A DNA stretch of 64,000 bases from Armatimonadota bacterium (GTDB lineage Bacteria; Sysuimicrobiota; Sysuimicrobiia; Sysuimicrobiales; Humicultoraceae). The notes beneath the pieces were generated by a model. That model was not told the origin of the DNA. It saw nothing but the letters and a program-made list of their open reading frames with translations, and ran no database searches. Positions 31,311-61,861 of the stretch are shown here, one piece after another (position 1 is the stretch's first letter; the number at the start of each line of letters is the position of its first letter). The position numbers and the translations under genes are program-made. The DNA is taken from the NCBI GenBank assembly GCA_031459855.1, contig JAVKHP010000001.1, positions 2,221,384 through 2,285,383 on the forward strand. Reading direction: 5' to 3'.

Positions 31311-32825
31311 GTGCGGTGGAGCCTGTTGCTGGCGCTCGGGCTGGTCCTAATCGTCGCCGGACGCGCCAGCGCCCAACCGATCCCGATCACGGTGGAGGCC
31401 GACGTCATCACCTATGACGCCGTCCAGCAGGTCGTCACCGCGCAGGGCAACGTTCGGGCCATGTTCCGCCGCTACCGGCTGACCGCTGACGCCGCCCGCG
31501 TGGACCTGCGGACCGGCGTGGTCACCGCGCGCGGCCGCGTTTTGCTGGTCGATGCCGAGGGCCGCCAGCTACGGGGCGCGGCGTTGACGTACAACAGCCG
31601 CACCGAGCAGGGCGTCCTCGAGCCGGTCGAGGGGCACTTCGAGCAGCGGGTGTACCTGCGCGGACAGCGGCTGGAGGCGGCGCCGACGCTGCTGGTGGCG
31701 CACGAGGCGACGGTGACCCCCTGCGACCCCGCGCAGCCGCTCTTCCGCGTGGTCGCCCGCCGCATCGAGATCGTCCCCGACCGCGAGGTCGTCGCGCATG
31801 ACGCCAGCCTCTACCTGGGCACCCGACGTCTGGTGACGCTTCCCCGGTACGAGATCTCGCTGCAGCCCCCGGAGGTGCGCACGCAGTTCCCGGGTTTCGG
31901 GGCCAACGCCGTCGAGGGCTTCTGGGCCGACTACCGGTTCCCGTTGCGCGTCGGCGCCGCTCGCGGGCGCGTCCACCTGCGGGCCGGGACCCTCACGGGC
32001 CTAGCGGGCCTGGCCACGCTCACCTACGACGGGCCCCGCTACACCGCATCGTTTCGCGTCGGCCGCACCCAGACCGTGGACGACCGCCCGAGCTTCGATG
32101 GGTTGCGGTACGACGTGGCCGAGGTGCAGGTGGCCACCGCCAGCGCGCGCCTGGCGGGCCTGCCGTTCTCGTGGACCGCTACGGTGACCGGCGGCTGGTA
32201 CAGTGAGCTCGCTACCGGCACCGCCACGACGCGCCTCGACGGCCAGCTTCGCCTGGTCACCGACGTCTTCCCGCTGGGCGAGCGGCTGACCGTGGCCGCC
32301 GTTGCGGGCATCCGCTTCTCCGCCTACGGCACCGGCGCGGTGCGGACCGTCGCCTCGTACGGGGCCACGCTGACCTACCGCCTCGACCGGTTCACGACCG
32401 CGACCCTGGGTTACGGCCGCGACGTGGTGCGCGGCGTCACGCCGCTCCAGATCGACGTCATAGACCCCGCCGACACTCTCAGCGTGCGCGTGGCTCGCGT
32501 GGTGCCCGACCGCTACCGCATCGCCGCCGGCGTCGCCTGGAACGCCGCCCTGGCCGAGACCAAGTACAGTGCGTCCGTGAGCGTGGTCGTGGCGCCCCGG
32601 TGGGAGCTGGGCCTGGCCGCAGTGTACAACACGCGGCTGGCCGCCTTCGAGGATATCGACTACACTGTCCGGTGGGTCTGCGACTGCGTGGACGTGGTGG
32701 TGGGCTACCGCCAGATGCGCCAGCAGGTCGTGCTCGAGGTCGGACTGTTCGGCCTGCCCCCGCGAGGCGACCCGTTCGTGCCCCGCACGCCGCTGCCCAT
32801 GCGCACCTTCGAGCCCCAGCAATGA
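31311..32825 (+). CDS. LptD/OstA-like outer-membrane protein
   Basis: 504 aa. A signal peptide (residues 1-21, ending RASAQ) leads into an OstA domain with ITVEADVITYDAVQQVVTAQ and LTADAARVDLRTGVVTARG. After about residue 190 it becomes a run of alternating amphipathic strands with many aromatic residues (beta-barrel-like), ending in short loops. LptD inserts lipopolysaccharide into the outer leaflet. This one is shorter than the about 780-residue E. coli protein. Cysteines occur at CDP and VCDCVD, which may form the disulfides needed by the family. GTG 31311 is preceded by GGAGAGG. Confidence 0.75.
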   Translation: MRWSLLLALGLVLIVAGRASAQPIPITVEADVITYDAVQQVVTAQGNVRAMFRRYRLTADAARVDLRTGVVTARGRVLLVDAEGRQLRGAALTYNSRTEQGVLEPVEGHFEQRVYLRGQRLEAAPTLLVAHEATVTPCDPAQPLFRVVARRIEIVPDREVVAHDASLYLGTRRLVTLPRYEISLQPPEVRTQFPGFGANAVEGFWADYRFPLRVGAARGRVHLRAGTLTGLAGLATLTYDGPRYTASFRVGRTQTVDDRPSFDGLRYDVAEVQVATASARLAGLPFSWTATVTGGWYSELATGTATTRLDGQLRLVTDVFPLGERLTVAAVAGIRFSAYGTGAVRTVASYGATLTYRLDRFTTATLGYGRDVVRGVTPLQIDVIDPADTLSVRVARVVPDRYRIAAGVAWNAALAETKYSASVSVVVAPRWELGLAAVYNTRLAAFEDIDYTVRWVCDCVDVVVGYRQMRQQVVLEVGLFGLPPRGDPFVPRTPLPMRTFEPQQ

Positions 32826-38044: not shown

Positions 38045-39136
38045 GTGCCGAAGGCATTGATTACGGGCATTACGGGCCAAGACGGCTCGTACCTAGCGGA
38101 GTTCTTGCTTGCCCGGGGTTACGAGGTACACGGCGTGATCCGCCGGGCTTCTACGTTCAGCACCGACCGCCTCGATCACCTGTACCGGGACCCTCATGAA
38201 CCCGGTGTTCGATTGTTCCTACACTACGGCGATCTCACGGATGGCACGAACTTGCGGGTGCTGTTGGAGCGGATTCAACCTGATGAGGTCTACAATCTTG
38301 GGGCGCAGTCGCACGTTCGCGTGTCATTTGATCAGCCTGAGTACACGGCCAACGTGGTTGCTCTTGGAACCCTGCGTCTCTTGGAGGCCGTGCGCGACTA
38401 CCAGCAACGTACGGGCCGGGCCGTGCGGTACTTCCAAGCAGGCTCTTCGGAGATGTTTGGTAATGCTCCTGCCCCGCAGAACGAACGCACACCCTTCGCT
38501 CCCCGCAGTCCGTATGCCGCCGCTAAGGTATTCAGCCACTACATCACCGTCAACTACCGTGAGGCATACGGATTGTTCGCGTCTAATGGTATCTTGTTTA
38601 ACCATGAAAGCGAACGGCGCGGCGAGACATTTGTCAGTCGGAAGATCACACGAGCAGCCACTCGGATCGTCTTGGGTCTTCAGGAGAGACTGTACCTTGG
38701 CAACCTGGATGCGCAACGTGACTGGGGCTATGCCCCTGACTACGTGGAGGCCATGTGGCGGATCGTCCACCACGACGAGGCCGATGATTTCGTGATTGCC
38801 ACCGGTGAGTCGCGGACTGTACGCGAGTTCCTGGACGCGGCTTTCGGCTTGTTGGGACTCGACTGGCGGGAGCATGTGGTGGTAGACCCCCGGTACTTCC
38901 GGCCGACTGATGTGGACCACTTGCAGGGTGATGCGTCCAAGGCCGCGCGCGTACTGGGCTGGCAGCCGAGGACGAGTTTTTCTGACATGGTCCGTATCAT
39001 GGTCGAGCATGATCTTGAGCTTGCACGTGCCGAGCGGTCATTGCGCCAGGCGGATTATTCCGGGGATGTCCCACTACGGTTGATGAGACCACCCGTGAAG
39101 TGGCGCCGAACGCCCTGGGGAGATAGCCAGCTGTGA
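38045..39136 (+). CDS. gmd: GDP-mannose 4,6-dehydratase
   Basis: Converts GDP-mannose to GDP-4-keto-6-deoxymannose, 363 aa. [17 protein letters not shown] is the NADP-binding start, and the active site shows [21 protein letters not shown] (Y-x3-K) and the family's [18 protein letters not shown] 38045 starts the fold directly. Codon choice is less GC-biased than in genes before 38 kb, which marks the beginning of the cassette. It is coupled to fcl by GTGA. Confidence 0.96.
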
Positions 39137-40119
39137 CCTCGGTGGACTCCTGGCACGGGATGTCGGTTGTTGTGACGGGAGGCGGGGGCTTCCTCGGCAG
39201 GGTGTTGGTAGATCGCCTGCGGCGCGCCGGTGCCAGGGTGTGCGTCCCGCGGCGCGCCGAGTACGATCTCACCGATGCCACGGCGGCGGCGCGGCTGTTT
39301 GCTGAAGCGAACCCCGAGGTAGTCTTCCATCTTGCTGCTGCTGTGGGCGGTATTGGTGCCAACCGGGACAATCCGGGCCGCTTTTTCTACGAAAACATGG
39401 CGATGGGGCTAAACGTCTTGGAGCAGGCGCGACGCCACGGGGGCGTGCGTAAGCTCGTCCTTGTGAGCACAACGTGTGCCTATCCGGAAGATGCGGAGGT
39501 CCCGTTGCGTGAGGAGGACCTATGGCGGGGTTATCCGGAGCCCACCAACGCACCCTATGGCATCGCCAAACGCGCTCTGGTGGTCATGGCCCACGCCTAT
39601 CTGCAGCAGTACGGCTTGCGGAGTATCACGCTCATTCCTGCCAATCTCTACGGCCCCGGTGACAACTTCGATCTCGAGACGTCGCACGTGATCCCGGCAT
39701 TGATCAGAAAGTGTGTCGAAGCCGTGGAGCGAGGCGATGATGAGATTACTGTATGGGGCGATGGAACAGCGACGCGTGAATTCCTCTATGTGGACGACGC
39801 TGCGCGCGGCCTGTTGTTGGCTGCGGAGCGGTACGATGATCCTCATCCCGTCAATCTCGGAACGGGCGAGGAGATCAGCATCAAGGGTCTGGTGACCCTT
39901 GTTGCCGATCTTACAGGATTCCGTGGCCTGGTACGCTGGGATACGTCAAAACCGACCGGACAGCGCCGCAGGCGACTGGAGATCTCCCGGGCCTGGGAGA
40001 AGTTCGGTTTTCGGGCGGCGGTGTCCCTGCGGGAGGGTTTGCAGGCCACAATCAGTTGGTACCGTACCGAGGGCAGGCGGTTGCAAGCGCGGTCGCGTAG
40101 GCCCGGAACGAGGTATTGA
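39133..40119 (+). CDS. fcl: GDP-L-fucose synthase-like epimerase/reductase
   Basis: 328 aa short-chain dehydrogenase. [18 protein letters not shown] binds NADP, and [27 protein letters not shown] (Y-x3-K) and [10 protein letters not shown] are characteristic of Fcl. It would turn the Gmd product into GDP-L-fucose. GTG 39133 overlaps the gmd stop. A GDP-rhamnose or colitose pathway reductase is a less likely alternative. It ends 4 nt before a convergent glycosyltransferase gene. Confidence 0.88.
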
Positions 40120-40123
40120 CGGT

Positions 40124-41227
40124 CTAGCTCAGGATGCCTGCGCGCGAGAAAATCTCTTGAAACCGATGCTCGTAGGTGTGCTCCGCAAGCACGCGGCGGT
40201 AGGCAGCTTCGCGCATCCGCTCGACGTCCGCGGGGTGCTGGAGCGCCCAGCGGATGCGTTCGATGAGATCATCCACGGTGTCGTATACGAGAATATCCCG
40301 GCCGAGTTCGTAGTAGTCGGCAAGCGCTTGCACGTGCTTCGTGATCAAGAGAGCACGACATGCGGGGACCTCGAAGTCTCGACCTTTCACTTGGTCCACA
40401 CCTCCGACCGAGGCGTTAGACAGGTTGAGGTTTACTTCGGTCTCGTTGATGATCTCCACGGCCCGCCGCGTGGAGATCTTGCCACTCCGCCACCCGTACC
40501 CGAATGTCTTCACCGGGAGGCCGGCGGCACGCAGGCGCGCGATGACTTGCCGGCGGTTGCCGTGGGGCTGACCGATGAACGTTATGGGAAAGCGTCTTGG
40601 CCTGTCGAGCGGGCGGTAGAGCCTGTGGTTGACGCCCCACTGTGAACGAATCACCCGCGGCATGCCCGCGGCATGGTATTTCGGCACGGCCTGCGGATCG
40701 GTCGTGATCGCCCACGAGAAATGACGTGCCCAGCGTCGTGAGAATGAGTCAAATCGCCAGTGATCATCCGTGAACCAGTTGAATGTCACGCAGCCCAGGC
40801 GTTGGAGCTCTTCAACCGCGTCCGGCGGAAAGTCGTCTTTGAAAAGGACGAAGAATGCTATGTCCGGTCTTAGGCGAAATGCGGCCTCCACGAGGAGATC
40901 TCCCGCACGCTGGCGGCCGAAGGTGCGCACCAGTGTGAGGGAGTCGAGGCGTATGATAGCGAACCCTAGTTGCATTAGGACCGGCAGGAAGTGGTTTTCC
41001 TCGTAGGAGTAGCCACGTGCGGGATTACCATAGTCGAACCTGGGAGCCACGTACAACAGTCGGATGCCCGCGGCTCGACCGCCTGGCTGTTGAGGGATCA
41101 CCGGAAGCACGCCGTGTGCGATCGTTCTGTCGAGATGTGTCTCAACGTGCATCTGGCGGGTAAGGCACTCTATGAGCTGCATGGCTGCGCGGCGCCAGTA
41201 GTACGGATGCGTGATGTAGCGCCTCAT
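40124..41227 (-). CDS. CgeB-like glycosyltransferase (GT1 fold)
   Basis: 367 aa. LLYVAPRFDYG marks the N-terminal domain. FNWFTDDHWRFDSF, ITFIGQPHGNRRQVIARL and GRDFEVPACRALLITK match the CgeB/DUF3880 plus glycosyl-transferase_1_2 pattern. The C-terminus has VYDTVDDLIERIRWALQHP. It is less GC-biased than the window's other genes. Start ATG 41227 is one choice; the first about 50 residues have no clear fold, so a later start is possible. Substrate unknown. Confidence 0.78.
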   Translation of the reverse strand: MRRYITHPYYWRRAAMQLIECLTRQMHVETHLDRTIAHGVLPVIPQQPGGRAAGIRLLYVAPRFDYGNPARGYSYEENHFLPVLMQLGFAIIRLDSLTLVRTFGRQRAGDLLVEAAFRLRPDIAFFVLFKDDFPPDAVEELQRLGCVTFNWFTDDHWRFDSFSRRWARHFSWAITTDPQAVPKYHAAGMPRVIRSQWGVNHRLYRPLDRPRRFPITFIGQPHGNRRQVIARLRAAGLPVKTFGYGWRSGKISTRRAVEIINETEVNLNLSNASVGGVDQVKGRDFEVPACRALLITKHVQALADYYELGRDILVYDTVDDLIERIRWALQHPADVERMREAAYRRVLAEHTYEHRFQEIFSRAGILS

Positions 41228-41264
41228 GGTTCCTACGCGTCAGAGTCTGCCGGGCATAAGCCGC

Positions 41265-42095
41265 CTATCGGAGCTTCTGGATGCCGCGAGCATGTGCTGT
41301 TATGCGCCGGGTAAGTGTGCCGACGGCTGCGTCCGCCGGCCCGTACGCCCGTGCCAGCATGTAGGCCCCGCAGGTCGCAGCCAGCGGCGGAATGGCCTCC
41401 CACCACCGCCCTAGGAGCCTGGCGGCCTCAAGCTGTGCGTCCAGGCGCGCACGCAGTGCCCACGCGCGTGGTCGACGGCTGTAGCTGTGGGGGAGGACTC
41501 TGTATGTGACCAGCACCCGGGGGATCACCGCTAGCTTCCACCTGCACGCCATTCGAATCCACAGTCGATAGTCCTCATTGGGCCCCTCCGGGTAACCTCC
41601 TGCTTCGCGGTACGCGGCATATCTGAACATCACGGAGCTGTGCACGAACGGGTTGTCCCACAGCAAATAACGTCGAAGACTGTGGTCCTGCGTCGGGGGT
41701 TGGAACTGGTATGTACGGCCGTCCGAGGTTTCTAGGCGGGCGTAACTTCCGACCAAGCCGACATCGGCATGTCGTTCCAGGTAGTGGACCTGCACCGTGA
41801 GGCGCTCTGGGTGAGCGACGTCGTCGGCGTCCAACCGCGCGACGTAGATCCCGTGCGCGTGGCTGCATCCCAAGTTTAGGGCCTTGGCCACGCCGCCGTG
41901 GGGTTGCCGGAACACACGGACACAGGGATTCTTGATGCGTTCTACAATGGCTACCGAGTCGTCCGACGACCCGTCGTCCACGATGATGATTTCCATCGGC
42001 CGCCAGGTTTGCTGCAGTAGGCTAGCCACGGCACCCTCGATGGTCGCAGCGGCGTTGTGCATGGGCACCACGACGGATACCAGGGGTGCACTCAT
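41265..42095 (-). CDS. Glycosyltransferase family 2
   Basis: 276 aa. The GT-A core begins at VSVVVPMHNAAATIE, with IIVDDGSSDDS, YVARLDADDVAHP (DxDD) and GPNEDYRLWIRMAC as acceptor motif. ATG 42095 overlaps the polymerase stop as ATGA. It belongs to the minus-strand run Wzx, Wzy, GT2, GT within the cassette, so it should add a sugar to the O-antigen-type repeat unit. Confidence 0.88.
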   Translation of the reverse strand: MSAPLVSVVVPMHNAAATIEGAVASLLQQTWRPMEIIIVDDGSSDDSVAIVERIKNPCVRVFRQPHGGVAKALNLGCSHAHGIYVARLDADDVAHPERLTVQVHYLERHADVGLVGSYARLETSDGRTYQFQPPTQDHSLRRYLLWDNPFVHSSVMFRYAAYREAGGYPEGPNEDYRLWIRMACRWKLAVIPRVLVTYRVLPHSYSRRPRAWALRARLDAQLEAARLLGRWWEAIPPLAATCGAYMLARAYGPADAAVGTLTRRITAHARGIQKLR

Positions 42096-43426
42096 GCGGA
42101 AGCCGACCATCTCGGTCGGTGCACCTGACATCCGGCAGCCAACCCCAGGAAGACCCAAAAGGTGAGGTTGTCAAACAGCACGTTGAAGGTGGCCCAGATC
42201 ACGAACGCAGCCGCTAATCCCTTGATGCACAGGTCCCGGATGCGTTCCTTCGCTGGAGTGTCGGCCGCCAAGTGGCGCAGAAGCAACCAGCCCCACAGGG
42301 TCGTGAACCCAACGAAACCCAAAAGCCCGGCATCGAGCCACGCCTGCAAAAAGGAATTCTCCACGTGGTTAGCGGTCTTGGCGCGGAGATTGATGTCTTG
42401 CACGACCGCGGGCACTCGTCCTGGCCCAATACCGGTGAGAGGATGGGTGGCGATCTGTCGCGTTGCGAGCTCAAGTAACTTGATACGGTCTGGCACATTC
42501 TCTTCTCGATTTTCCAATCGCATCACAGTCATGCGTTTGTACAATCGCTCCTTGATGGTTGCTGGTTGATCGAATGGTAAAGTCGGAGATGTTACGGTGA
42601 TGTCCGCAAGGAGAATTGCGAGAATTGCCGTGCAGCCGATCGCGAACAGCCGCAGGACGTCTCCACGGTGTAACAGCCTGTCCCGAGCGAGCCCCGCTAA
42701 CACCACCGCCAGGCCAACTAGAAGGCTAAGCCAAGTGGCACGCGATTGGGAGAGCACGATAGCTGCCGTCGTCATCCCCGTCAGGATGGTCCATATCCAG
42801 ACGGCCCGTGCCGCCACGGTCTTAGCAAAGAATATCAGGTGGAAAAACAGCAAGAGGAAATACAGTGCGTCGGCATTGCGGGTGGATGCCGTATACCGAA
42901 TTCCAAAATACCCGAGCGCATGTTGGTCTGGCTCTCCGATTACACCGGTATAGAACCCTACGATCCCGTACGCCAGGAGCGCGAGCAAGGTCCCGGTAAG
43001 GCCGTTCCATACCAGTGCCCGGGGTGTGTGCGTGAGCGCCAGGGTGAGAACGGGTACTGCCAATGGCAGGAGGGCCGGCCGCCACGCGGCCTCGAGCGGG
43101 ACCTTCCCGGCGTTGACGACATAACTCACCACTGTCCCAAGGGAAAGCAATGCGGGCGCGGCGAGGAATGCAACCGCGTCTGATGTGCTCACGTGCAGAG
43201 GACGGCGAAAGACTTGTATGGCCACCACAAGCGCGAGTGGTATAGCGAAAAGGTAGGGAAGCGGCGCGCCACTAGCCAGAGGTATTCTGATCTGCGGAAC
43301 CGCATGCGTCCACAGGGACAGGATTAGTGCCACCGTAAGGCCACGCACGATGCGTGCTCTCCAGGCGCTGCTCGTCGTTACTTCGACCGCTGACGTGTCC
43401 ATTTTAGAGGGGCTCCCCGCGGTCAT
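42092..43426 (-). CDS. Wzy/O-antigen ligase-family membrane protein
   Basis: 444 aa with about eleven hydrophobic segments. The long loop with THPLTGIGPGRVPAVVQD and the following NHVENSFLQAWLDAGLLG are the Wzy_C signature. Location between Wzx and the glycosyltransferases indicates the polymerase of the repeat unit. ATG 43426 is the start used, though MDTSAVE further in is possible. Sequence shows reduced GC bias. Confidence 0.85.
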   Translation of the reverse strand: MTAGSPSKMDTSAVEVTTSSAWRARIVRGLTVALILSLWTHAVPQIRIPLASGAPLPYLFAIPLALVVAIQVFRRPLHVSTSDAVAFLAAPALLSLGTVVSYVVNAGKVPLEAAWRPALLPLAVPVLTLALTHTPRALVWNGLTGTLLALLAYGIVGFYTGVIGEPDQHALGYFGIRYTASTRNADALYFLLLFFHLIFFAKTVAARAVWIWTILTGMTTAAIVLSQSRATWLSLLVGLAVVLAGLARDRLLHRGDVLRLFAIGCTAILAILLADITVTSPTLPFDQPATIKERLYKRMTVMRLENREENVPDRIKLLELATRQIATHPLTGIGPGRVPAVVQDINLRAKTANHVENSFLQAWLDAGLLGFVGFTTLWGWLLLRHLAADTPAKERIRDLCIKGLAAAFVIWATFNVLFDNLTFWVFLGLAAGCQVHRPRWSASA

Positions 43427-43457
43427 GGATGCACCAAGGGGGTTGGGCGAGCGGCGG

Positions 43458-45068
43458 TCATAGACGGAGCAGCCTCGTTACGGCCGCCCGTTCGCCAGGG
43501 TGCAGGGTCCTCGCCCACGTCCACCAGATGAGCACGAGCAGCACTATGGCGATACCGACGACACGGTGAGTCGTCGGTACGGGCAGCCAGTAATAGACGA
43601 TGCTCCAGGTCACACACGCGACTACTACCGGTACCGCCACGTGTTGCAGCGGACCTCGTAAGTCCATCCCCGCGAACAGGGGCAACCGTTTCGATAGCCA
43701 TAATAGTATTGCAGTCTCAAGCACAAAACGGCCTGACCAAGCGGCTGCGGCTCCGTTAGCACCGGCCGCATGCACCAGCCAGAGCAACGCCACCACATAG
43801 AGGGGTGCCTCAACGACGTGCAGCTTGGCTGCCACCTCCGGAGAGCCGATGCCGTGAATCAGCGTCATCGGCACTACGCCTATTACTTGAAACGCCGCCC
43901 CCACCGCAAGCAGTTGCAGCACGGAAGTGCTATGGACGGCGACGCCAGCTCCAACCCATGCCTTGAGGAGATCGGGGGCCAACACCGCCGCCAACCCGAA
44001 AATTGGTCCGGTGATTAAGAGCCCCAGTCTTATCGCCCGGACAAACAGCAAGGCCAGCCGCTCCCGATCGTGGTTGCCGCTCAGGGCGCTGAATGCAGGA
44101 AACAGCACGGCGGCCATGCTCCCCGCTACCAGGCCCAGCCGCGCAATCAATTCGGCCGGTACTGCATAGTACGCCAGATCCGCCATCGGTTGCAGCGTCC
44201 CAATGATGACACGATCCCCATAAGTCAGCATGACGCTTGCAAGTCCGGAGATCATCACCCAGCGACCGAATCCCAGGAGACGCCCGATGTCCTTGCCTCG
44301 CAACGGACTCACCGGTACTGTGAGGGACAGCACCCGGACGGCCCCAACGAGAAGAGCGATGACCAGCGTCGCGCGTGCAGCCAGGAGAGCGAGCGTGATC
44401 GGAGGCAGGAGCCATCCGGCCGCGACGCCCATGACTGGAACCAGGAAGGACGACGCGCTGGAGGCAGCCTTGGCCAATGCGGCGATATCGAATCGCTGCG
44501 CGGCTTCGAGCGTTCCGCGAAGCGAGTTGGTGACGAACATCAGTGGAAGCAGGAAAGCTGCCAGTCTCAACGCCACGATAGCCTCAATCTGCATAGCGGA
44601 GGACACGCGCAGTACGTGTAGAACCAGCAGAGGCGTCAACAGCGCCATGATACCCGAGATGGCGAGCCCGACGAGGACCTGTCCAAAAACAGTCGTCCAG
44701 ACCAGTTGCGACACGGCACGCGTATCACCGCGTCCCAGCGCCTCGGCGACGAACTTCGTCACTGCACTTGCCAGTCCCAAGTCGAAGATGGTCAGCGCGC
44801 CGGTTACCGTCCACAGAAAGACGAGGAGTCCAAAGCGTTCTGTCCCCAGGCCGCGGAGGATGATGGGCACACTGACCATGCCGACGACCAGGGGAAGCGC
44901 CTGACCAATGATGTTGAGAAGGCCGTTGCGCACGAGGAGTGCACCGCTGATTTCCACTGCCGGAGGAGCCGCACTGCGCAGTCCGGGTCGGTGCGGCGGC
45001 TGCTTCTCCGCCCCGGGGGCCGATAGCGTGGCGGCATGTCGAGGGGCGGTAGCATGAGGATTCTCCAT
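43458..45068 (-). CDS. Wzx-like polysaccharide flippase (MATE/MVF-like superfamily)
   Basis: About 536 aa with twelve to fourteen hydrophobic segments. LLNIIGQALPLVVGMVSVP at the first helix and LGTERFGLLVFLWTVTG are typical of Wzx, which flips lipid-linked repeat units across the inner membrane. The start is unsure: ATG 45068 would overlap the 5' end of the divergent GT4 gene by 15 nt and lacks a good ribosome site. A GTG near 44958 (reading VEISGALLV) would remove the overlap. Confidence 0.85.
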   Translation of the reverse strand: MENPHATAPRHAATLSAPGAEKQPPHRPGLRSAAPPAVEISGALLVRNGLLNIIGQALPLVVGMVSVPIILRGLGTERFGLLVFLWTVTGALTIFDLGLASAVTKFVAEALGRGDTRAVSQLVWTTVFGQVLVGLAISGIMALLTPLLVLHVLRVSSAMQIEAIVALRLAAFLLPLMFVTNSLRGTLEAAQRFDIAALAKAASSASSFLVPVMGVAAGWLLPPITLALLAARATLVIALLVGAVRVLSLTVPVSPLRGKDIGRLLGFGRWVMISGLASVMLTYGDRVIIGTLQPMADLAYYAVPAELIARLGLVAGSMAAVLFPAFSALSGNHDRERLALLFVRAIRLGLLITGPIFGLAAVLAPDLLKAWVGAGVAVHSTSVLQLLAVGAAFQVIGVVPMTLIHGIGSPEVAAKLHVVEAPLYVVALLWLVHAAGANGAAAAWSGRFVLETAILLWLSKRLPLFAGMDLRGPLQHVAVPVVVACVTWSIVYYWLPVPTTHRVVGIAIVLLVLIWWTWARTLHPGERAAVTRLLRL

Positions 45069-46187
45069 ACGGTTGAATTCTACCATCCGCGAGTCGGCGG
45101 TGCCGAGCGAGTGGTGCAGCGCATCTCCGAGGGATTGGCTGCCCGGGGTCATGAGGTAGTGGTCGCCACCGGCGAGGATCCCGATCGGTCGTTGGGTCGA
45201 CTCAATGGCGTTGAGGTGGTCTCGTTTCGGGTTGCTGGGAACCTTGCCCGCGGCCTGCGAGGTCAGGTAGCTGAGTACCAGGAGTGGTTGCGACGCCAGT
45301 CATTTGACGTTGTGCTGAACTACGCGGCACAGGTCTGGCCTACAGATGCCGCACTACCGCTATTGCGGGACCTGCGGGCGGCGCGCGTGCTGGCACCGTG
45401 CGGGTTTTCCGGACTGCACGGTCCCCGGCGCATCGTATACTGGTCGTACTACCGCATGTTGGCCCGACAGCTGTGCGACTACGATGCGGTGATATGTCAC
45501 AGCACGAGCACAGCAGACACACGGTTCTGTCGTCGATGGGGCCCTGTTATGCAGGCGGTGATACCCAACGGCGCCGACAGCGCAGAGTTCGAGAGCGCAC
45601 CTGCAGGGTTCCGCCGCTGTCATAACATTACGACACAATATATGCTGCTACACGTAGGAAATCATTATCAAGTCAAGGGGCATGACGCTCTCCTGAGGAT
45701 GTTTTCGTCCCTGCGAGCCGTGGACGCGACGCTCGTGATCATCGGCGGGCCGCCTCGGGGCGGTCGGTCGTGCTGGGAGACCTGCCAGCGAGCTGCAGCG
45801 CGTGACGGGCGCGTGCGTTTGCTGAGCGGTCTGTGTCGTCGTGAGGTGGTAGCCGCATACCGGGAGGCGGACGTCGTGCTGCTGACGTCGAGGTTTGAGG
45901 TTGCCCCTCTGACCTTGGTGGAAGCGATGGCGGCTGGCGTACCGTTTGTTTCCTACAACGTTGGCAACGCTACGGAATTAGCAGGAGGCCTCGTCGTGAA
46001 CACGGCGGAGGAGATGGCGAGAATCCTTCGCGACCTCCTGGAGGACCACGATCGGCGGCGTCGCCTGGGCGAGGAGGGGCGGCAGGCCCATCGGCACATG
46101 TTCGAGTGGGAGCGAATCATCGACCGCTACGAAGAATTTTACAGCAGGGTGTGGGCCACGGCACGATCGTCGCGGGGAATCCGATGA
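45054..46187 (+). CDS. Glycosyltransferase family 4
   Basis: 377 aa GT-B enzyme. The N-domain is HTVEFYHPRVGGAERVVQRI. The C-domain has VIPNGADSAEFES, LLHVGNHYQVKGHDALL and the E-x7-E motif in FEVAPLTLVEAMAAG. GAGGGG precedes ATG 45054. It is transcribed away from the flippase and coupled by ATGA to the next GT2 gene. Retaining transferase using a nucleotide sugar; specificity unknown. Confidence 0.9.
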   Translation: MRILHTVEFYHPRVGGAERVVQRISEGLAARGHEVVVATGEDPDRSLGRLNGVEVVSFRVAGNLARGLRGQVAEYQEWLRRQSFDVVLNYAAQVWPTDAALPLLRDLRAARVLAPCGFSGLHGPRRIVYWSYYRMLARQLCDYDAVICHSTSTADTRFCRRWGPVMQAVIPNGADSAEFESAPAGFRRCHNITTQYMLLHVGNHYQVKGHDALLRMFSSLRAVDATLVIIGGPPRGGRSCWETCQRAAARDGRVRLLSGLCRREVVAAYREADVVLLTSRFEVAPLTLVEAMAAGVPFVSYNVGNATELAGGLVVNTAEEMARILRDLLEDHDRRRRLGEEGRQAHRHMFEWERIIDRYEEFYSRVWATARSSRGIR

Positions 46188-47050
46188 CCGTGCCGATGCC
46201 AACTCTCTCCGTCGTGATGGTTACATGGAACTCTGCTGGGTTTCTAGCGTCGGCCTTGTCAGCCCTAAGGCGCGAGGCCGCATCACTGGCGATTGAGGTT
46301 GTCGTAGTTGACAACGGGTCAACGGATGGATCGTTGACGGTGGCCGCGGCGACTCTGCCTGATGCCCTCGTCGTCCGTAACCCCTGGAACAAGGGCGTGG
46401 CGCGCGCTCGTAACCAGGGGTTTGCGATGGCACGCGGCCGCTATGTGCTCTTCCTAGACAGTGACGCCGAGGTGATGCCGGGGAGTCTGTCCGCTCTTGT
46501 CGCCTTCATGGAGGCACACCCCTCGGTTGGCCTCGCCGGCCCGAGACTGGTGTCGCCCGACGGCACCGTCCAGTGTAGCTGCCGGCGGTTTCCCACGTTG
46601 CCCGGCAAACTCGGGAGGCAGTTGCCATTGCGCTTGCAGCGCCGACTGCCCTGGGTAGTGCACGAGGAGATGCTGGACGTCGATCGCTCCACTTCCATGC
46701 CGGTGGACTATGTGGTCGGAGCCTGCCAGTTGATTCGGCCCGCTGTATTTCGCCGAGCCGGCGGCCTGGACGAGCGAATCTTCTACGGGCCAGAGGACGT
46801 GGATTTCTGCTTGCGCGTCTGGCAAGCGGGTTGGGAAGTGTGGTACGTGCCGCAGGCAACTGTCGTGCACCACGAGCAACGCGTCACACGGCGCCGTCCT
46901 GGCTGGCTGACCGGCCGGCATGCCGTGGCGTTGGCGTACTACTTCACAAAGCATCGCTATCTCTGGCGCCGACCCGATCGCGACACGTTGAAGGCATCGG
47001 CCGACCGTCGTCGACAGGATCCCGGGCATTCGGGCAGAAGAGACGAGTAG
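46184..47050 (+). CDS. Glycosyltransferase family 2 (rhamnosyltransferase-like)
   Basis: 288 aa. LSVVMVTWNSAGFL, VVVDNGSTDGS, LFLDSDAEVMPGS (DxD) and the GPEDVDFCLRVWQAGW acceptor motif fit WbbL-type rhamnosyltransferases. ATG 46184 overlaps the GT4 stop. It is the last gene with the lower-GC signature; the following gene starts 2 nt later and is strongly GC-biased again. Confidence 0.88.
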   Translation: MTVPMPTLSVVMVTWNSAGFLASALSALRREAASLAIEVVVVDNGSTDGSLTVAAATLPDALVVRNPWNKGVARARNQGFAMARGRYVLFLDSDAEVMPGSLSALVAFMEAHPSVGLAGPRLVSPDGTVQCSCRRFPTLPGKLGRQLPLRLQRRLPWVVHEEMLDVDRSTSMPVDYVVGACQLIRPAVFRRAGGLDERIFYGPEDVDFCLRVWQAGWEVWYVPQATVVHHEQRVTRRRPGWLTGRHAVALAYYFTKHRYLWRRPDRDTLKASADRRRQDPGHSGRRDE

Positions 47051-55587: not shown

Positions 55588-56397
55588 ATGCCCCAGGTGC
55601 ACGCGCGCGACCTGCTCGACATCGCCATCGTCACGCTGCTCGTCTACCAGGTGCTCTGGCTGATCCGCGGGACCCGCGCGGTGCAGCTGGCGATGGGCAT
55701 GGCCGTGCTCTTCGCCGCCTACGTCGCCAGCCGGGTGCTGCAGTTGACCACCCTGCAGTGGATCCTCTCGTACCTGGGGGTGGTGATCCCCATCGCGATG
55801 CTGGTGATCTTCCAGCCCGAGCTGCGGCGCATGCTGGAGCAGCTCGGGCGCGGGGGGGTGTTCGCCGCGCGCTTTGGCGGCGAGCTGGGGCGCGAGGAGA
55901 CGATCCGCTTGGTCAACGACGTGGCGCGGGCGTGCCGGGTGCTGTCGGGGCGGCGCACCGGCGCCCTCATGGTGCTGGAGCGCCGCACCGGCCTCAACGA
56001 CGTGGTCGAGTCGGGCATCAAGCTCGACGCGCAGGTCTCGGTGCAGCTCCTCATCACGCTCTTCTTCCCCAACACTCCTCTGCACGACGGCGCCGCCGTC
56101 ATCCGCGGCAACCGGCTGGTCGCGGCAGGCTGCCTGCTCCCCCTCTCGGAGAACCCCCACCTGAGCCGGACACTGGGCACCCGCCACCGCGCCGCGCTCG
56201 GCATCAGCGAGGCCACCGACGCCGTGGCGGTGGTGGTGTCGGAGGAGACCGGCGTGATCTCCCTGGCGCAGGACGGCCAGCTCACGCGTGGGCTCTCCGA
56301 GGAGGAACTGAAGGTGGCGCTGCTGGGGTTGCTGGCCCAGCCCGCCCCCCGCGCGCCGGCCCTGTGGCCGTGGCGACGCGCCTCCCGCTCGGCATGA
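55588..56397 (+). CDS. cdaA: Diadenylate cyclase CdaA
   Basis: Makes cyclic di-AMP from two ATP, membrane-anchored, 269 aa. Three N-terminal hydrophobic helices precede the DAC domain with the DGA motif in LHDGAAVIRG (near residue 167) and GTRHRAALG (near 200). c-di-AMP controls potassium and osmotic balance and cell-wall synthesis in Bacillota. The order cdaA-cdaR-glmM is the same as there. It ends in an ATGA overlap with the YbbR gene. Confidence 0.94.
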   Translation: MPQVHARDLLDIAIVTLLVYQVLWLIRGTRAVQLAMGMAVLFAAYVASRVLQLTTLQWILSYLGVVIPIAMLVIFQPELRRMLEQLGRGGVFAARFGGELGREETIRLVNDVARACRVLSGRRTGALMVLERRTGLNDVVESGIKLDAQVSVQLLITLFFPNTPLHDGAAVIRGNRLVAAGCLLPLSENPHLSRTLGTRHRAALGISEATDAVAVVVSEETGVISLAQDGQLTRGLSEEELKVALLGLLAQPAPRAPALWPWRRASRSA

Positions 56398-56789
56398 GGC
56401 ACTGGCGGGCAGCCGTCCTCTCGGAGCGCATGCGGCTGCTGGCCCTGTCGCTGGTCATCGCCGTGACCATGTGGTACTACGTGAGCACGACCCTGGGGCC
56501 GGCGGCGCAGGCGCCGCTGCGGGTCGTGCTGGTGCGCAACGTCGACGTGGTGGTCTCGGGGCTGGCTCCCGGGTGGACGGCGGCCGTGACGCCGGCCCGG
56601 GTCGACGTCGAGATCCGTGGGCCGGAGCCGTTGCTGGTGCTGCGGGTGGCCGACGTCCGGGCCATCGCCGAGGTGGGTGCGCTCGGGCCCGGCGTGCACC
56701 AGGTGGCGCTGCGGGTGCAGATCCCCGACGGTGTGACCATGGTGCGGGTCACGCCGCCGGCCGTCCAGGTCACGCTGACGCGGCCCTGA
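56394..56789 (+). CDS. YbbR-domain protein, short CdaR-like regulator
   Basis: 131 aa. One membrane anchor (LLALSLVIAVTMWYYVST) and a single YbbR domain with VVLVRNVDVVVSGLAPGW. CdaR of Bacillus carries several YbbR repeats and modulates CdaA from outside the membrane; this is a one-repeat version. It starts within the cdaA stop codon and ends 3 nt before glmM. Confidence 0.85.
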   Translation: MRHWRAAVLSERMRLLALSLVIAVTMWYYVSTTLGPAAQAPLRVVLVRNVDVVVSGLAPGWTAAVTPARVDVEIRGPEPLLVLRVADVRAIAEVGALGPGVHQVALRVQIPDGVTMVRVTPPAVQVTLTRP

Positions 56790-56792
56790 CCC

Positions 56793-58124
56793 ATGGCGCG
56801 GCTGTTCGGCACCGACGGGATCCGTGGCGTGGCCAACGCCGACCTGACGCCGGAACTGGCCTTTCGTGTGGGGCGGGCGGCCGGCGCGGTGCTCGGCGGC
56901 CAGGTGCCCGTGGTCATCGGCCGCGACACCAGGGTCTCCGGGCCGATGCTGGAGGCTGCGCTGGCCGCGGGCCTGTGTTCGGTCGGCGTGTCTGCGGCGC
57001 TGGCGGGGATCCTGCCCACCCCGGCGGTGGCGTACCTGGCTCGCGCCCAGCAGCGCAGCGGCGTGGTCGTCTCGGCATCTCACAACCCCGTGGAGGACAA
57101 CGGCATCAAGCTGTTCGGCGCCGACGGCTTCAAGCTGCCCGACGCGGTGGAGGAACGCATCGAGGCGTGGCTCGCGCGGGACGACCTGCCGCGGCCCACG
57201 GGCACGGGGCTGGGGACGGTGGTGCCGTTGCCGGACGCGGAGGATCGCTACCTGGGCTACCTGCTGGGCCTGGCGGGTGGCCGGCTCGACGGCGTGCGCG
57301 TGGTCGTCGACTGCGCCTATGGGGCCGCCGTGCGCGTAGCACCCCAGCTGTGGCAGGCGCTGGGCGCCACCGTCATCGCGCTCCACGCCGTGCCCGACGG
57401 GGCGCGCATCAACGTGGGGTGCGGCTCGACCCACCTGGCGCCGCTCCAGGCCGCCGTGCGCGCGCACGGTGCCGACGTGGGCTTCGCACACGACGGCGAC
57501 GCCGACCGCGTCCTGGCCGTGGACGAGCGCGGGGAGGTGGTGGACGGCGACGCCCTCATGGGGATCTGCGCGCTGGACCGCTGCACGCGCGGCTTGCTGC
57601 CGGGTGCCGTGGTCGTCGCCACGGTGATGAGCAACGCCGGGCTGGAGGACGCCCTCCGCGCAGCGGGGGTGCGGCTCGAGCGCACGCGCGTGGGCGACCG
57701 CTACGTCCTCGAACGCATGCGCGAGGTCGGCGCCGTGCTGGGCGGCGAGCAGAGCGGCCACCTGGTGTTCCTGGACCGCGCCACGACCGGCGACGGGCTC
57801 GTGACCGCGCTGGAGGTCGTCAACGTGATGCTGCGCACCGGCCGGCGGCTGTCGGAGCTGCGGGCGGCGATTCCGCGGTACCCGCAGGTCCTGGTCAACG
57901 TGCGCGTGCGCCGGCGCGACGGCGTGCTGGAGGCCCCGGAGGTGGCGGCGGCGATCCGGGCCGCGCAGGGGCGGTTGCGCGACGGCGGCCGCATCCTCGT
58001 GCGGCCGTCGGGGACCGAGCCGGTGATCCGCATCATGGTGGAGGCCACCCGACAGGATCTGGCAGAGGCGCTCGCCGCCGAGGTCGCCGAAGCGGTGGCG
58101 CGCGCTGCGGGAGGGACGCCGTGA
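56793..58124 (+). CDS. glmM: Phosphoglucosamine mutase
   Basis: Converts glucosamine-6-phosphate to glucosamine-1-phosphate, 443 aa. The phosphoserine is S96 in SASHNPVEDNG, the magnesium loop is HDGDADRVL, the sugar loop GGEQSGHLVF, and the phosphate loop RPSGTEPVIRIM. LFGTDGIRGVANADLTPE at the start is typical. It belongs with glmS downstream in the UDP-GlcNAc pathway. GlmM is known to bind and inhibit CdaA in several Gram-positive species. Confidence 0.96.
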   Translation: MARLFGTDGIRGVANADLTPELAFRVGRAAGAVLGGQVPVVIGRDTRVSGPMLEAALAAGLCSVGVSAALAGILPTPAVAYLARAQQRSGVVVSASHNPVEDNGIKLFGADGFKLPDAVEERIEAWLARDDLPRPTGTGLGTVVPLPDAEDRYLGYLLGLAGGRLDGVRVVVDCAYGAAVRVAPQLWQALGATVIALHAVPDGARINVGCGSTHLAPLQAAVRAHGADVGFAHDGDADRVLAVDERGEVVDGDALMGICALDRCTRGLLPGAVVVATVMSNAGLEDALRAAGVRLERTRVGDRYVLERMREVGAVLGGEQSGHLVFLDRATTGDGLVTALEVVNVMLRTGRRLSELRAAIPRYPQVLVNVRVRRRDGVLEAPEVAAAIRAAQGRLRDGGRILVRPSGTEPVIRIMVEATRQDLAEALAAEVAEAVARAAGGTP

Positions 58125-58882
58125 CCGCGGTCGTCCAGAGCGCGCCTGCGCCGCCGCGGCACGTGCTGCTGGGCACCGGCGTGCACGCGGTGACGCTCGC
58201 CGAAGCGCTGGCCTGGATCGACGCCGCCATCGCCCGCCGGCAGCCCGTCTACGTGGTGACGCTGAATGGCGCCATGCTCGTCCAGGCGGCCCGGGACGCG
58301 GCGCTGCGGGCGCTCGTCAACGGCGCAGGCCTCGTCACCGCCGACGGGGTGGGCGTGCTGCTGGCCGCGCGCATCCTCGGCGCGCGGCTCGCGCAGCGGG
58401 TGGCCGGGATCGACCTGGCGCTGGCGCTGTGCGAGCGCGCCGCGCAGACCGGGTGGCGGGTCTTCCTGCTGGGGGCCGCACCGGGCGTGGCGGCTGAGGC
58501 GGCGGCGGCCCTGCGCGCCCGCTTTCCCGGGCTCGCGATCGCCGGCGTCTGGCACGGGTTCTTCACGCCGGCGGAAGAACCCGCCGTGGTGGAGGCGATC
58601 CGCGGGGCGGCGCCGGACGTGTTGCTGGTGGCCATGGGCGTGCCCAGGCAGGAAGCGTGGATCGGCCGCTGGCACCACGTGCTGGGCGTGCCCGTCTCCA
58701 TGGGCGTCGGCGGCGCGCTGGACGTGATCGCGGGACGCCTGCCCCGTGCCCCGCGCTGGATGCAGCGCCTGGGGCTGGAGTGGCTGTACCGGGCCCTGCG
58801 CGAGCCGCGGCGCTGGCAGGTCGTGCGCACCATCCCGCCGCTGTTCTGGCTGGCCGTACGTGAGCGGTGGCGGCGCCGGTAG
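58121..58882 (+). CDS. WecG/TagA/CpsF family glycosyltransferase
   Basis: 253 aa, GT26. VVTLNGAMLVQAARD, TADGVGVLLAARILG, RVAGIDLALALCERA and the MGVPRQEAWIGRW motif fit the family, which adds N-acetylmannosamine(-uronate) to lipid-linked GlcNAc. GTG 58121 overlaps the glmM stop as GTGA. It ends the cdaA operon and could draw on the GlcNAc pathway encoded on both sides. Confidence 0.88.
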   Translation: MTAVVQSAPAPPRHVLLGTGVHAVTLAEALAWIDAAIARRQPVYVVTLNGAMLVQAARDAALRALVNGAGLVTADGVGVLLAARILGARLAQRVAGIDLALALCERAAQTGWRVFLLGAAPGVAAEAAAALRARFPGLAIAGVWHGFFTPAEEPAVVEAIRGAAPDVLLVAMGVPRQEAWIGRWHHVLGVPVSMGVGGALDVIAGRLPRAPRWMQRLGLEWLYRALREPRRWQVVRTIPPLFWLAVRERWRRR

Positions 58883-58987
58883 GCCCCTCCCGTGCGTGGG
58901 ACGGTGTGGCCCGCCGCGCGCCGGCCGCTGTTCCGGACGCGGGCAGGAGCCCCGGAGCGTCACCGCGAATGCGACGGCTGACCCAGC

Positions 58988-59008
58988 GTGCCGCACGGGG
59001 TGCGGCAC
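58988..59008 (+). terminator. Perfect hairpin between the WecG-like gene and the ribozyme
   Basis: GTGCCGCAC (58988-58996) and GTGCGGCAC (59000-59008) form a 9-bp stem with a GGG loop. There is no U-run, so termination is plausible but not certain. The stretch from 58883 to here shows nothing else. Confidence 0.5.
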
Positions 59009-59063
59009 CCCGCGGGAGAAACGCAGAAGGGGAGGAGGTGAGCGAGTCTCGTCGCGTGCCGCA

Positions 59064-59237
59064 AGCGCCTGAACCCGACGTCCGTCGGGTTGACGAGGGA
59101 GGGGAACTCGGAGCGTTCGGCGGGTGACCCTAGGCCCGGTCCGGGCCTGCACCACCTCAGCGCATCGCCTCGCGCCTGAGGCAAGGCCGCCTACAAACCC
59201 CGGAGGCGACTCCGGCCCAAAGGGCGGACCAGGACAC
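59064..59237 (+). ncRNA. glmS ribozyme (glucosamine-6-phosphate-activated self-cleaving riboswitch)
   Basis: The leader of glmS carries the ribozyme core in order: GCGCCTGAACC at 59065, a P1-type hairpin CCCGAC/GTCGGG, GTTGACGAGG, TTCGGCGGGTGACCC, two further stems (GGCCCGGTCCGGGCC, and CCTCAG...CTGAGG), and a terminal hairpin CCGGAG-GCGA-CTCCGG with a GNRA loop. These match by eye the architecture of the Thermoanaerobacter/Bacillus class. Predicted cleavage is between A59064 and G59065. When glucosamine-6-phosphate is plentiful the mRNA cuts itself and GlmS production drops. About 100 nt separate it from the start codon. Confidence 0.93.
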
Positions 59238-59339
59238 GCCAGGCACGTCTTCGCTGCCCGGTCCCATGGGACTACCGGGAAGTGTCGCCGGTTGCCGGCC
59301 AGACCGGGCACCCCAGGTTCACCGCTGGAGGGTGCACAC

Positions 59340-61187
59340 ATGTGCGGCATCATGGGGTACGTGGGCACACGTCCGGCGCTGCCGATCCTGCTGGACGGTC
59401 TGCGCCGGTTGGAGTACCGGGGCTACGACTCCGCAGGCGTGGCCGTGCTGGAGAACGGACACATCGCGATCCGCAAGGCGGCGGGCAAGCTGCAGCGGCT
59501 CGAACAGGTGGTCAGCGTCGCTCCCCTGGGCGGCTCGGTGGGGATCGGGCACACCCGGTGGGCCACCCACGGGCAACCCACCGACGCCAACGCCCACCCG
59601 CACAGCGACTGCACGGGCCGCTGCGTGGTCATCCACAACGGGATCATCGAGAACTACCTGTCGCTGCGCGAGGCGCTCCAGGCGCAGGGGCACCGGTTCG
59701 CCTCCGACACCGACACCGAGGTGCTGGCGCACCTGATCGAGGCCGCCTACGCCGCGCTGCCGCCCGGCACCCCCGGACGGTTCGAGCTGGCCGTGCGTCA
59801 GGCGGTACGCCGGGCACGTGGGGCCTACGCCATCGTGGTGATGCTGGCCGACGAGCCCGACCGGATCGTCGCCGTGCGCATGATCAGCCCGCTCATCGTG
59901 GGCATCGGCCAGGGCGAGATGTGGCTGGCGTCCGACATCCCCGCGCTGCTCCCCTACACGCGCGACGTCCTGGTGGTCAGCGACGGCGAGATGGCCGTCA
60001 TCGAGCCGCATCGCGTGCGCCTGCTGGACCTAGAGGGCCGGCCGGTCGACCGCCGTCCCCAGCACGTCACGTGGGACGCGGAGATGGCCGAGAAGGGCGG
60101 GTACCCCCACTTCATGCTCAAGGAGATCTACGAGCAACCCCGGGCGTTGCAGGACACGATGATGGGCCGCCTGGACCTGGACGACCGGATCGAGCTGGAC
60201 GGCGTGGTCTTCCCCGACGGTTTCGTCGAGCGGCTCGAGGGGATCTGGCTCACCGCCTGCGGCACCGCGTACCACGCCGGGCTGGTGGGCCGGCGGCTCA
60301 TCGAGCAGCTGGCGCGCATTCGGGTGGAGCCCGACCTGGCGTCGGAGCTCCGCTACCGCGACCCGCTCATCCAGGGGACGACGCTGGCGGTCGCCATCAG
60401 CCAGTCGGGCGAGACGGCCGATACGCTGGCGGCCGCGCGGGAGGCTCGGGCCCGCGGCGCCCGGCTGCTGGCCGTGACCAACGTGGTGGGCAGCACGCTG
60501 GCCCGCGAGGCCGACGACGTGCTCTACGTCCGCGCCGGTCCCGAGATCGCCGTGGCGTCCACCAAGGCCTACGTGACCATGCTGGTGGCGATGCAGCTGC
60601 TGGCGATCGACCTCGGCCTGCGCCGCGGTGTGCTGGCCCGCGACGTGGCGCGGCGGCTCGTGGCGGGCCTGCGCCGCCTGCCCCAGCTTGCCCAGGAAGT
60701 GCTCCAGCGCGCCGACGCCGTGGCGGCGCTGGCGGCGCGGCTGGCCCACGTCGAGCATGCGTTCTTCATCGGCCGCGGTCTCGACTACGCCGTGGCCATG
60801 GAGGGTTCGCTCAAGCTCAAGGAGATCTCCTACCTGCACAGCGAGGCGCTGGCCGCCGGCGAGTTGAAGCATGGCACGCTGGCGCTGGTGACGCCGGAGA
60901 CGCCGGTGTTCGCCCTGGTCACCCAGCGGGCGATCTACGAGAAGACCCTGGGCAACATCCAGGAAGTCCGGGCACGGGGCGCGGAGGTCGTCGCCGTCGC
61001 CTACGACGACGACGGCGAGATCGCCAAGCACGCGCACACGGTCCTGCGCATTCCGCCCGTGGACGACCTGCTGGCGCCGGTGCTGGCCATTATCCCCCTG
61101 CAGCTGTTCGCCTACCACGTGGCGGTGCTGCGCGGCCACGACATCGACCAGCCGCGCAACCTCGCCAAGAGCGTGACGGTCGAGTAG
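59340..61187 (+). CDS. glmS: Glutamine-fructose-6-phosphate aminotransferase (isomerizing)
   Basis: First enzyme of UDP-GlcNAc synthesis, 615 aa. The N-terminal nucleophile is Cys2 (MCGIMGYVG), with TRWATHGQPTDANAHPH in the glutaminase domain. Two SIS domains follow (ISQSGETADT, RGLDYAVAMEGSLKLKEISY), and the C-terminus is DQPRNLAKSVTVE. GGAGGG lies 8 nt before ATG 59340. The longer open frame upstream is the ribozyme region and cannot be coding, because Cys2 must be at the N-terminus. Regulated by the ribozyme in its leader. Confidence 0.97.
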   Translation: MCGIMGYVGTRPALPILLDGLRRLEYRGYDSAGVAVLENGHIAIRKAAGKLQRLEQVVSVAPLGGSVGIGHTRWATHGQPTDANAHPHSDCTGRCVVIHNGIIENYLSLREALQAQGHRFASDTDTEVLAHLIEAAYAALPPGTPGRFELAVRQAVRRARGAYAIVVMLADEPDRIVAVRMISPLIVGIGQGEMWLASDIPALLPYTRDVLVVSDGEMAVIEPHRVRLLDLEGRPVDRRPQHVTWDAEMAEKGGYPHFMLKEIYEQPRALQDTMMGRLDLDDRIELDGVVFPDGFVERLEGIWLTACGTAYHAGLVGRRLIEQLARIRVEPDLASELRYRDPLIQGTTLAVAISQSGETADTLAAAREARARGARLLAVTNVVGSTLAREADDVLYVRAGPEIAVASTKAYVTMLVAMQLLAIDLGLRRGVLARDVARRLVAGLRRLPQLAQEVLQRADAVAALAARLAHVEHAFFIGRGLDYAVAMEGSLKLKEISYLHSEALAAGELKHGTLALVTPETPVFALVTQRAIYEKTLGNIQEVRARGAEVVAVAYDDDGEIAKHAHTVLRIPPVDDLLAPVLAIIPLQLFAYHVAVLRGHDIDQPRNLAKSVTVE

Positions 61188-61319: not shown

Positions 61320-61484
61320 ATGACGATCGACGCCGACCTGCTGCAGATCCTGGCCTGTCCGGTGGACCATGCTCCCGTCGTCCTCGAGGGCGATCGGATC
61401 GTGTGCACGCAGTGCGGCCGGCGCTATCCCATTCGCGACGGCATCCCGCACATGCTCGAAGAGGAAGCCGAGCTGCCGCGATGA
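61320..61484 (+). CDS. Trm112-like small zinc-binding protein (UPF0434 type)
   Basis: 54 aa, short but well supported. DLLQILACPVDHAP, then IVCTQCGRRYPIRDGIPHML, give the cysteine pairs (C-P and C-x2-C) and the end motif of the Trm112/YcaR family. GTGAGGAGC immediately precedes ATG 61320. Its stop overlaps the acpS start as ATGA. Homologues activate methyltransferases in eukaryotes and archaea; the bacterial role is not settled. The gap from glmS is 132 nt, with nothing else seen. Confidence 0.85.
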   Translation: MTIDADLLQILACPVDHAPVVLEGDRIVCTQCGRRYPIRDGIPHMLEEEAELPR

Positions 61485-61861
61485 TCGTCGGGGTGGGAGT
61501 CGACGTGGTGGAGGTGGCCCGCATCCAGCGGGCCATCGCGCGGTGGGGCGATGGGTTCGTGCGCCGGATCTACACGGCGCGGGAGGTGGAGCGGGCCGCC
61601 GCGCCCGCGGTGCTGGGCCCCCGGCTGGCCGCCCGGTTCGCGGCGAAGGAGGCCGTGATGAAGGCCCTCGGCTGCGGCTGGCGTGAGCTCACCTGGCGCG
61701 AGATCGAGATCACCCACGACCCGCAGGGGCGGCCTGTGGTGCGCCTGCATGGCGCGGCACAACGGATCGCCGCGGCCCGCGGGGTCGTCGAGGTGCACGT
61801 GGCGCTCTCACACACCCGCGAGCACGCCATCGCCAACGCCGTGGCGGTCGGCGCCGGGTAA
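61481..61861 (+). CDS. acpS: Holo-[acyl-carrier-protein] synthase
   Basis: 126 aa, usual length. VGVGVDVVEVARIQRAI carries the metal-binding aspartate, and RLAARFAAKEAVMKALG is the second signature. VHVALSHTREHAIANAV closes the fold. It attaches 4'-phosphopantetheine to acyl carrier protein. ATG 61481 overlaps the Trm112-like stop. Together with the nnr gene downstream this is a common bacterial neighbourhood (acpS-nnr). Confidence 0.94.
   Translation: MIVGVGVDVVEVARIQRAIARWGDGFVRRIYTAREVERAAAPAVLGPRLAARFAAKEAVMKALGCGWRELTWREIEITHDPQGRPVVRLHGAAQRIAAARGVVEVHVALSHTREHAIANAVAVGAG

Follow-up and report, generated by a model that had tools for sequence, protein, structure and literature searches.

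The window analysed here, a stretch of 64,000 nucleotides, carries on its forward strand a group of genes in which an RNA element immediately precedes glmS. Upstream lie cdaA, for a diadenylate cyclase (55588-56397; TIGR00159, 250 bits for a cut-off of 188.8), a cdaR-like YbbR-domain gene (56394-56789, start codon approximate), glmM, for phosphoglucosamine mutase (56793-58124; TIGR01455, 566.6 bits), and a gene for a glycosyltransferase of the WecG/TagA/CpsF family (58121-58882, start codon approximate; PF03808, 219.8 bits), the latter standing between glmM and the ribozyme. The cdaR-like call is weak: it rests on a YbbR score of 19.2 bits, slightly short of the cut-off of 22.3, and on gene order. 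glmS itself, for glutamine-fructose-6-phosphate transaminase, occupies 59340-61187 (TIGR01135, 806 bits for a cut-off of 418; the protein starts MCGIMGY) and is followed by acpS (61481-61861), named from its sequence; relatives and Halanaerobium show this order too. The first-pass annotation had rightly noticed cdaA-cdaR-glmM beside the ribozyme; it had also taken this setting as a surprise, whereas cdaA-cdaR-glmM-glmS with the ribozyme is the operon of B. subtilis (PMC6171935) and Halanaerobium has the same order. Elsewhere in the window, at 38045-47050, genes have about 0.7 G+C in third position rather than 0.9, and some resemble by eye sugar-nucleotide enzymes and glycosyltransferases; this segment may have been acquired, as a surface-polysaccharide island.

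Searched with Rfam 15 over its full length, the window gives a match to the glmS ribozyme (RF00234) at 59053-59239 (+), covering the full model (1-167 of 167) with 38.5 bits and an E-value of 1.7e-5. The gathering score of the family is 37 bits, which the match exceeds by 1.5 bits, so that the search proposed in the first-pass annotation comes out in its favour. It is the sole Rfam match at gathering threshold in the window and the sole RF00234 match in the 3.19 Mb genome; at the same position ahead of glmS, relatives score up to 89 bits. The element thus lies in the 5' leader of the TIGR01135 gene, its end about 100 nt from the start codon, and the Shine-Dalgarno-like GGAGGG (59327-59332, +) sets the ribosome-binding site some 90 nt downstream of it. 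Neither an intrinsic terminator nor a sigma-70 promoter was found in 58860-59360 by a consensus scan, which is weak at 71% G+C.

Architecture of the element

The motifs of the class follow one another in the window in the expected places: AGCGCC with predicted cleavage after the A, the P1 hairpin, GACGAGG, UCG, UUCGGCGGGUG, the P3 hairpin and the GCGA-capped P4. The four motifs named in the first-pass annotation are all there, namely the cleavage motif AGCGCC (59064-59069), GTTGACGAGG (59089-59098), TTCGGCGGGTG (59116-59126) and the GCGA-capped hairpin (59200-59215). The predicted cleavage bond, A(-1) to G(+1) at 59064-59065, is the same as in that annotation; both bases are invariant in the 26 members of our core alignment, which come from Sysuimicrobiota and Acidimicrobiia. 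The end of the span given at first, 59064-59237, is correct to a few bases, the last strand of the P3.1 pseudoknot finishing near 59230.

With the helix definitions of PMC7125110, the 5' strand of P2.2 is CGCC (59066-59069) and its partner is the GGCG (59119-59122) inside TTCGGCGGGTG; P2.1 joins CGA (59094-59096) to TCG (59108-59110). All seven pairs of these two helices are formed, and invariant, in the window and in the 26 aligned sequences. A compensatory change was seen in one Acidimicrobiia-type locus (L042), where GCACC faces CGGUGG, an A-U replacing a G-C in P2.2. P1, which reads AACCCGAC GTCC GTCGGGTT (59072-59091), covaries at four of its five basal pairs: among the 26 members both partners differ in 24 cells, where shuffles give 9.8, and pairing holds in 98% of the cells, while sliding the strands leaves at most 41%. 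P2 pairs AGGG (59100-59103) with CCCT (59128-59131) according to the Rfam alignment, and P3 (59132-59148), compared among members, is a hairpin AGGCCC-GGTCC-GGGCCT. P4 (59187-59227) holds an internal loop and a GCGA tetraloop (59206-59209), seen both in the Rfam match and in the sequence; a GNRA-capped hairpin was present in the members parsed, the search being for GNRA.

In the window the loop of P3, GGUCC (59138-59142), forms the long-range pairing P3.1 with GGACC (59226-59230) after P4, and this pseudoknot covaries across families: at least five Watson-Crick pairs are found in 57% of 47 sequences, a share that falls to 8% with loops exchanged between families and to 11% in shuffles. A P3/P3.1 pseudoknot and a GNRA-capped P4 are both present.

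Between P3 and P4 the window contains an extra, lineage-specific hairpin (59155-59181, CCTCAG/CTGAGG), for which an equivalent helix exists in seven relatives; its covariation score was reached by none of 500 shuffles. The hairpin is shared by families f1 and f2 of the phylum, exists in a short version in f4 and is absent from f7 and from Acidimicrobiia. In f2 pairing is complete (100%), and both partners have changed in four of the seven pairs. Loci of f4 and f7 and L122 display another hairpin, set in the core loop that runs from P2.1 to the 3' strand of P2.2 (L003-L009, L012, L014, L016-L018, L020, L024, L025 and L122); the MAFFT columns of this helix in f4 and f7 are poor. The length of P1 also varies among members, from some 20 to more than 100 nt. 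The extra hairpins and the variable P1 probably explain, in part, the low RF00234 scores of Sysuimicrobiota members.

The low score of the window's genome, together with the loss of the element from one genus of the same family (see below), might suggest a decayed, inactive relic that merely resembles a glmS ribozyme. We hold this for very improbable: P2.1 and P2.2 are perfect, all motifs of the catalytic core fit the consensus of the phylum, P3.1, the long-range pairing, is intact and covaries, and the low score goes with the extra hairpin and with G+C-rich stems, not with changes of the core. As for these stems, which the first-pass annotation saw as suited to a hot habitat, the ribozyme has 72% G+C for a window background of 71%. 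Heat adaptation through G+C-rich stems was thus rejected, since the composition equals the background and the folding energy lies just 1.4 sd below shuffles.

Altogether, the score above the gathering threshold, the invariant core and the covarying P3.1 bear out the initial claim of a glmS ribozyme upstream of glmS. We estimate at roughly 93% the probability that the element is a true glmS ribozyme-riboswitch, whose self-cleavage driven by GlcN6P lowers GlmS.

Predicted cleavage and fate of the glmS message

RNA structure and gene context are read directly at this locus; for the ligand and the chemistry of cleavage we rely on what is established for the class. On this ground, accumulation of GlcN6P, the product of GlmS, would lead the leader RNA to cleave itself between A59064 and G59065, leaving the glmS message a 5'-hydroxyl end; the cut message would then be lost and the synthesis of GlmS would drop. 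The last step, the loss of the cut mRNA in this genome, is one that we infer. RNase J1 is the enzyme that degrades the cut glmS mRNA, with its 5'-OH end, in B. subtilis (PMC3997798, PMC3328962). A canonical RNase J was not found in the window's genome, where the best match to TIGR00649 has 31 bits, so that decay cannot go through this enzyme. The departure from the B. subtilis circuit concerns the step downstream of the cut, not the membership of the ribozyme in its class.

The same situation extends to relatives. TIGR00649 is above its cut-off in 20 genomes, all of families f3, f4 and f7 (419-596 bits), and canonical RNase J is absent from all genomes of f1, f2, f5 and f6. Thirteen ribozyme-bearing genomes, the window's and 12 relatives, are without it, nine of them being at least 93% complete. 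The window's genome does encode RNase Y (732 bits) and RNase E/G (488 bits), either of which would be a likely agent for the removal of the cut message. It also encodes a distant RNase J-like protein of 470 aa (70.8 bits to TIGR00649, whose cut-off is 400), with a metallo-beta-lactamase fold and an RMMBL motif and without the C-terminal domain of RNase J (G000:C1:1286451-1287860; L147:1249-2661, minus strand). It could stand in for RNase J. This protein is patchy across the phylum, with no match in the ribozyme-bearing genomes G001, G014, G026 and G039.

The cleavage step would thus be as in Bacillus, and the decay step would have to differ or use another enzyme. That in the window's genome and in at least eight near-complete relatives the ribozyme works without canonical RNase J, the 5'-hydroxyl message being removed by RNase Y, RNase E/G or a divergent metallo-beta-lactamase-fold RNase, is a proposal to which we give even odds. 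If true, the effector step of the glmS riboswitch class would be exchangeable. The missing RNase J could also be taken as a sign that the element is a ligand-binding riboswitch controlling translation or transcription with no dependence on self-cleavage. This has very little probability in our opinion: the consensus scan found no terminator-like site in 58860-59360, the ribosome-binding site is some 90 nt beyond the ribozyme, and the bases of the cleavage site do not vary in any of the 26 aligned members. A self-cleaving ribozyme remains by far the favored reading.

Distribution and descent in Sysuimicrobiota

The window's genome is a member of the phylum formerly called CSP1-3 and now named Sysuimicrobiota, and riboswitches go unmentioned in the paper describing it (PMC11604079). 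Among 43 genomes of the phylum, 30 have an RF00234 match at E <= 0.01, 27 of them above the cut-off. Reading directly for motifs the glmS leaders of Rfam-negative genomes brings the count to 32 of the 37 genomes with a readable leader, two of them by motif alone: one leader (G011) is missed by Rfam, and in another (G025) the 3' end of the ribozyme falls at a contig edge. One genome with a gap of N in the leader (G004) and five assemblies without glmS were not scorable. The ribozyme is found in four of the seven families of the phylum (f1, f2, f4 and f7), plus f5. Outside the phylum, glmS ribozyme motifs were also seen in the leaders of two loci, one of Candidatus Binataceae and one of Clostridia (L096 and L101), and Rfam matches lie ahead of glmS in Ktedonobacteraceae (L079) and Atribacterota (L072/L076).

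The element is absent from the glmS leaders of G015 and of four genomes of one genus (G002, G008, G009 and G010), a genus that has deleted the ribozyme. In three of these four genomes the short leader retains a stretch resembling 59168-59195 of the window (leaders of the genus: L113-L116, L031 and L032). The score of L114, 22, was reached by 0 of 1000 shuffles and that of L116 by 3 of 1000; L115 is not significant alone, since 58 of 1000 shuffles reach its score. The retained stretch is possibly the scar of the deleted ribozyme, with significance in L114 and L116 only.

The GlmS proteins nearest to those of Sysuimicrobiota, outside the phylum, belong to Acidimicrobiia, and almost all of these come with a ribozyme. 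A maximum-likelihood tree of 48 rows places the Acidimicrobiia GlmS within Sysuimicrobiota, adjoining family f4 (100/100), and a tree holding the Sysuimicrobiota GlmS together is rejected (AU p 0.003, in a test made once the first GlmS tree was known). These results point to a movement of glmS and its ribozyme, as one cassette, between the two groups, in a direction that we infer from the outgroup root. In a wider tree, the GlmS of Sysuimicrobiota and Acidimicrobiia group with those of Bacillota (SH-aLRT 99), and the gene order at the window matches that of Halanaerobium, as would be expected if the window's lineage had recently gained the element from Bacillota. Such a recent gain appears unlikely to us, as Bacillota are not the nearest in the 48-row tree and the element occurs across f1, f2, f4 and f7, plus f5, with family-specific helices; any transfer thus predates these families.

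Host envelope and known glmS ribozymes

The genome encodes LpxC (286 bits) and Omp85/BamA (135 bits), about 7 kb apart; the host is therefore a diderm with LPS genes, in agreement with the first-pass annotation. The genes of the window cited there fare less well: the "LpxB" at 28445-29644 passes its Pfam cut-off but is far below that of the lpxB equivalog (52.6 for 190 bits), and the "Lpt" gene at 31311-32822 is weak (14.9 bits for a cut-off of 20.4). A second LpxB-like gene, at 22302-23417 (-), encodes a lipid-A-disaccharide synthase-related protein above cut-off (TIGR03492, 233.6 bits). LptD (PF04453) has a match in none of the 43 genomes, with a model that also misses most diderm controls.

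The glmS ribozyme is well known from Bacillus and relatives, and the present data add an uncultured phylum to its range, with gene and ribozyme as a single cassette common to Sysuimicrobiota and Acidimicrobiia. They also offer a natural contrast, between relatives that have both the ribozyme and RNase J and others that have the ribozyme but lack this enzyme, plus a sister genus with the ribozyme deleted; with these, the route by which the cut message is destroyed and the value of the ribozyme can be put to the test. Specialists might wish to follow up the absence of RNase J and the deletion in nature; the grounds for surprise initially put forward mostly fail.

The RF00234 members of Thermoanaerobacter tengcongensis, Bacillus anthracis and B. 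subtilis share with the window the cleavage-site sequence, P1, P2, P2.1, P2.2, P3, P3.1, P4, the GNRA tetraloop and the position before glmS. The window differs from them by its extra covarying P3-P4 hairpin, its 72% G+C and a host without canonical RNase J. Extra stems were reportedly described by McCown et al. in 2011 in glmS ribozymes of Deinococcus-Thermus. In Acidimicrobiia (L037-L057), which have the closest GlmS outside the phylum, the ribozyme likewise precedes glmS (52-101 bits); by contrast with the window, P3.1 is there of the UCCAC/GUGGA type, the J3/4 hairpin is lacking, and no LpxC was found in the genome tested (G049).

Two other outer-membrane lineages bear on the novelty of the host. 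Deinobacterium chartae, a control from Deinococcota, outside Bacillota, matches RF00234 like the window, although without LpxC match. The ribozymes of Halanaerobium (L082, L084, L085 and L088) differ from ours in being A+T-rich and stronger (111-122 bits), with no extra hairpin and no wecG match between glmM and glmS; the hosts, however, are cultured species that, like the window's genome, are diderm with LpxC (330-336 bits), and they have the order cdaA ... glmM-ribozyme-glmS-acpS-nnr. The combination of a diderm host and a glmS ribozyme, which the first-pass annotation held to be surprising, is thus not new, and the element of the window is an ordinary representative of a known ribozyme class, found in a little-studied phylum.
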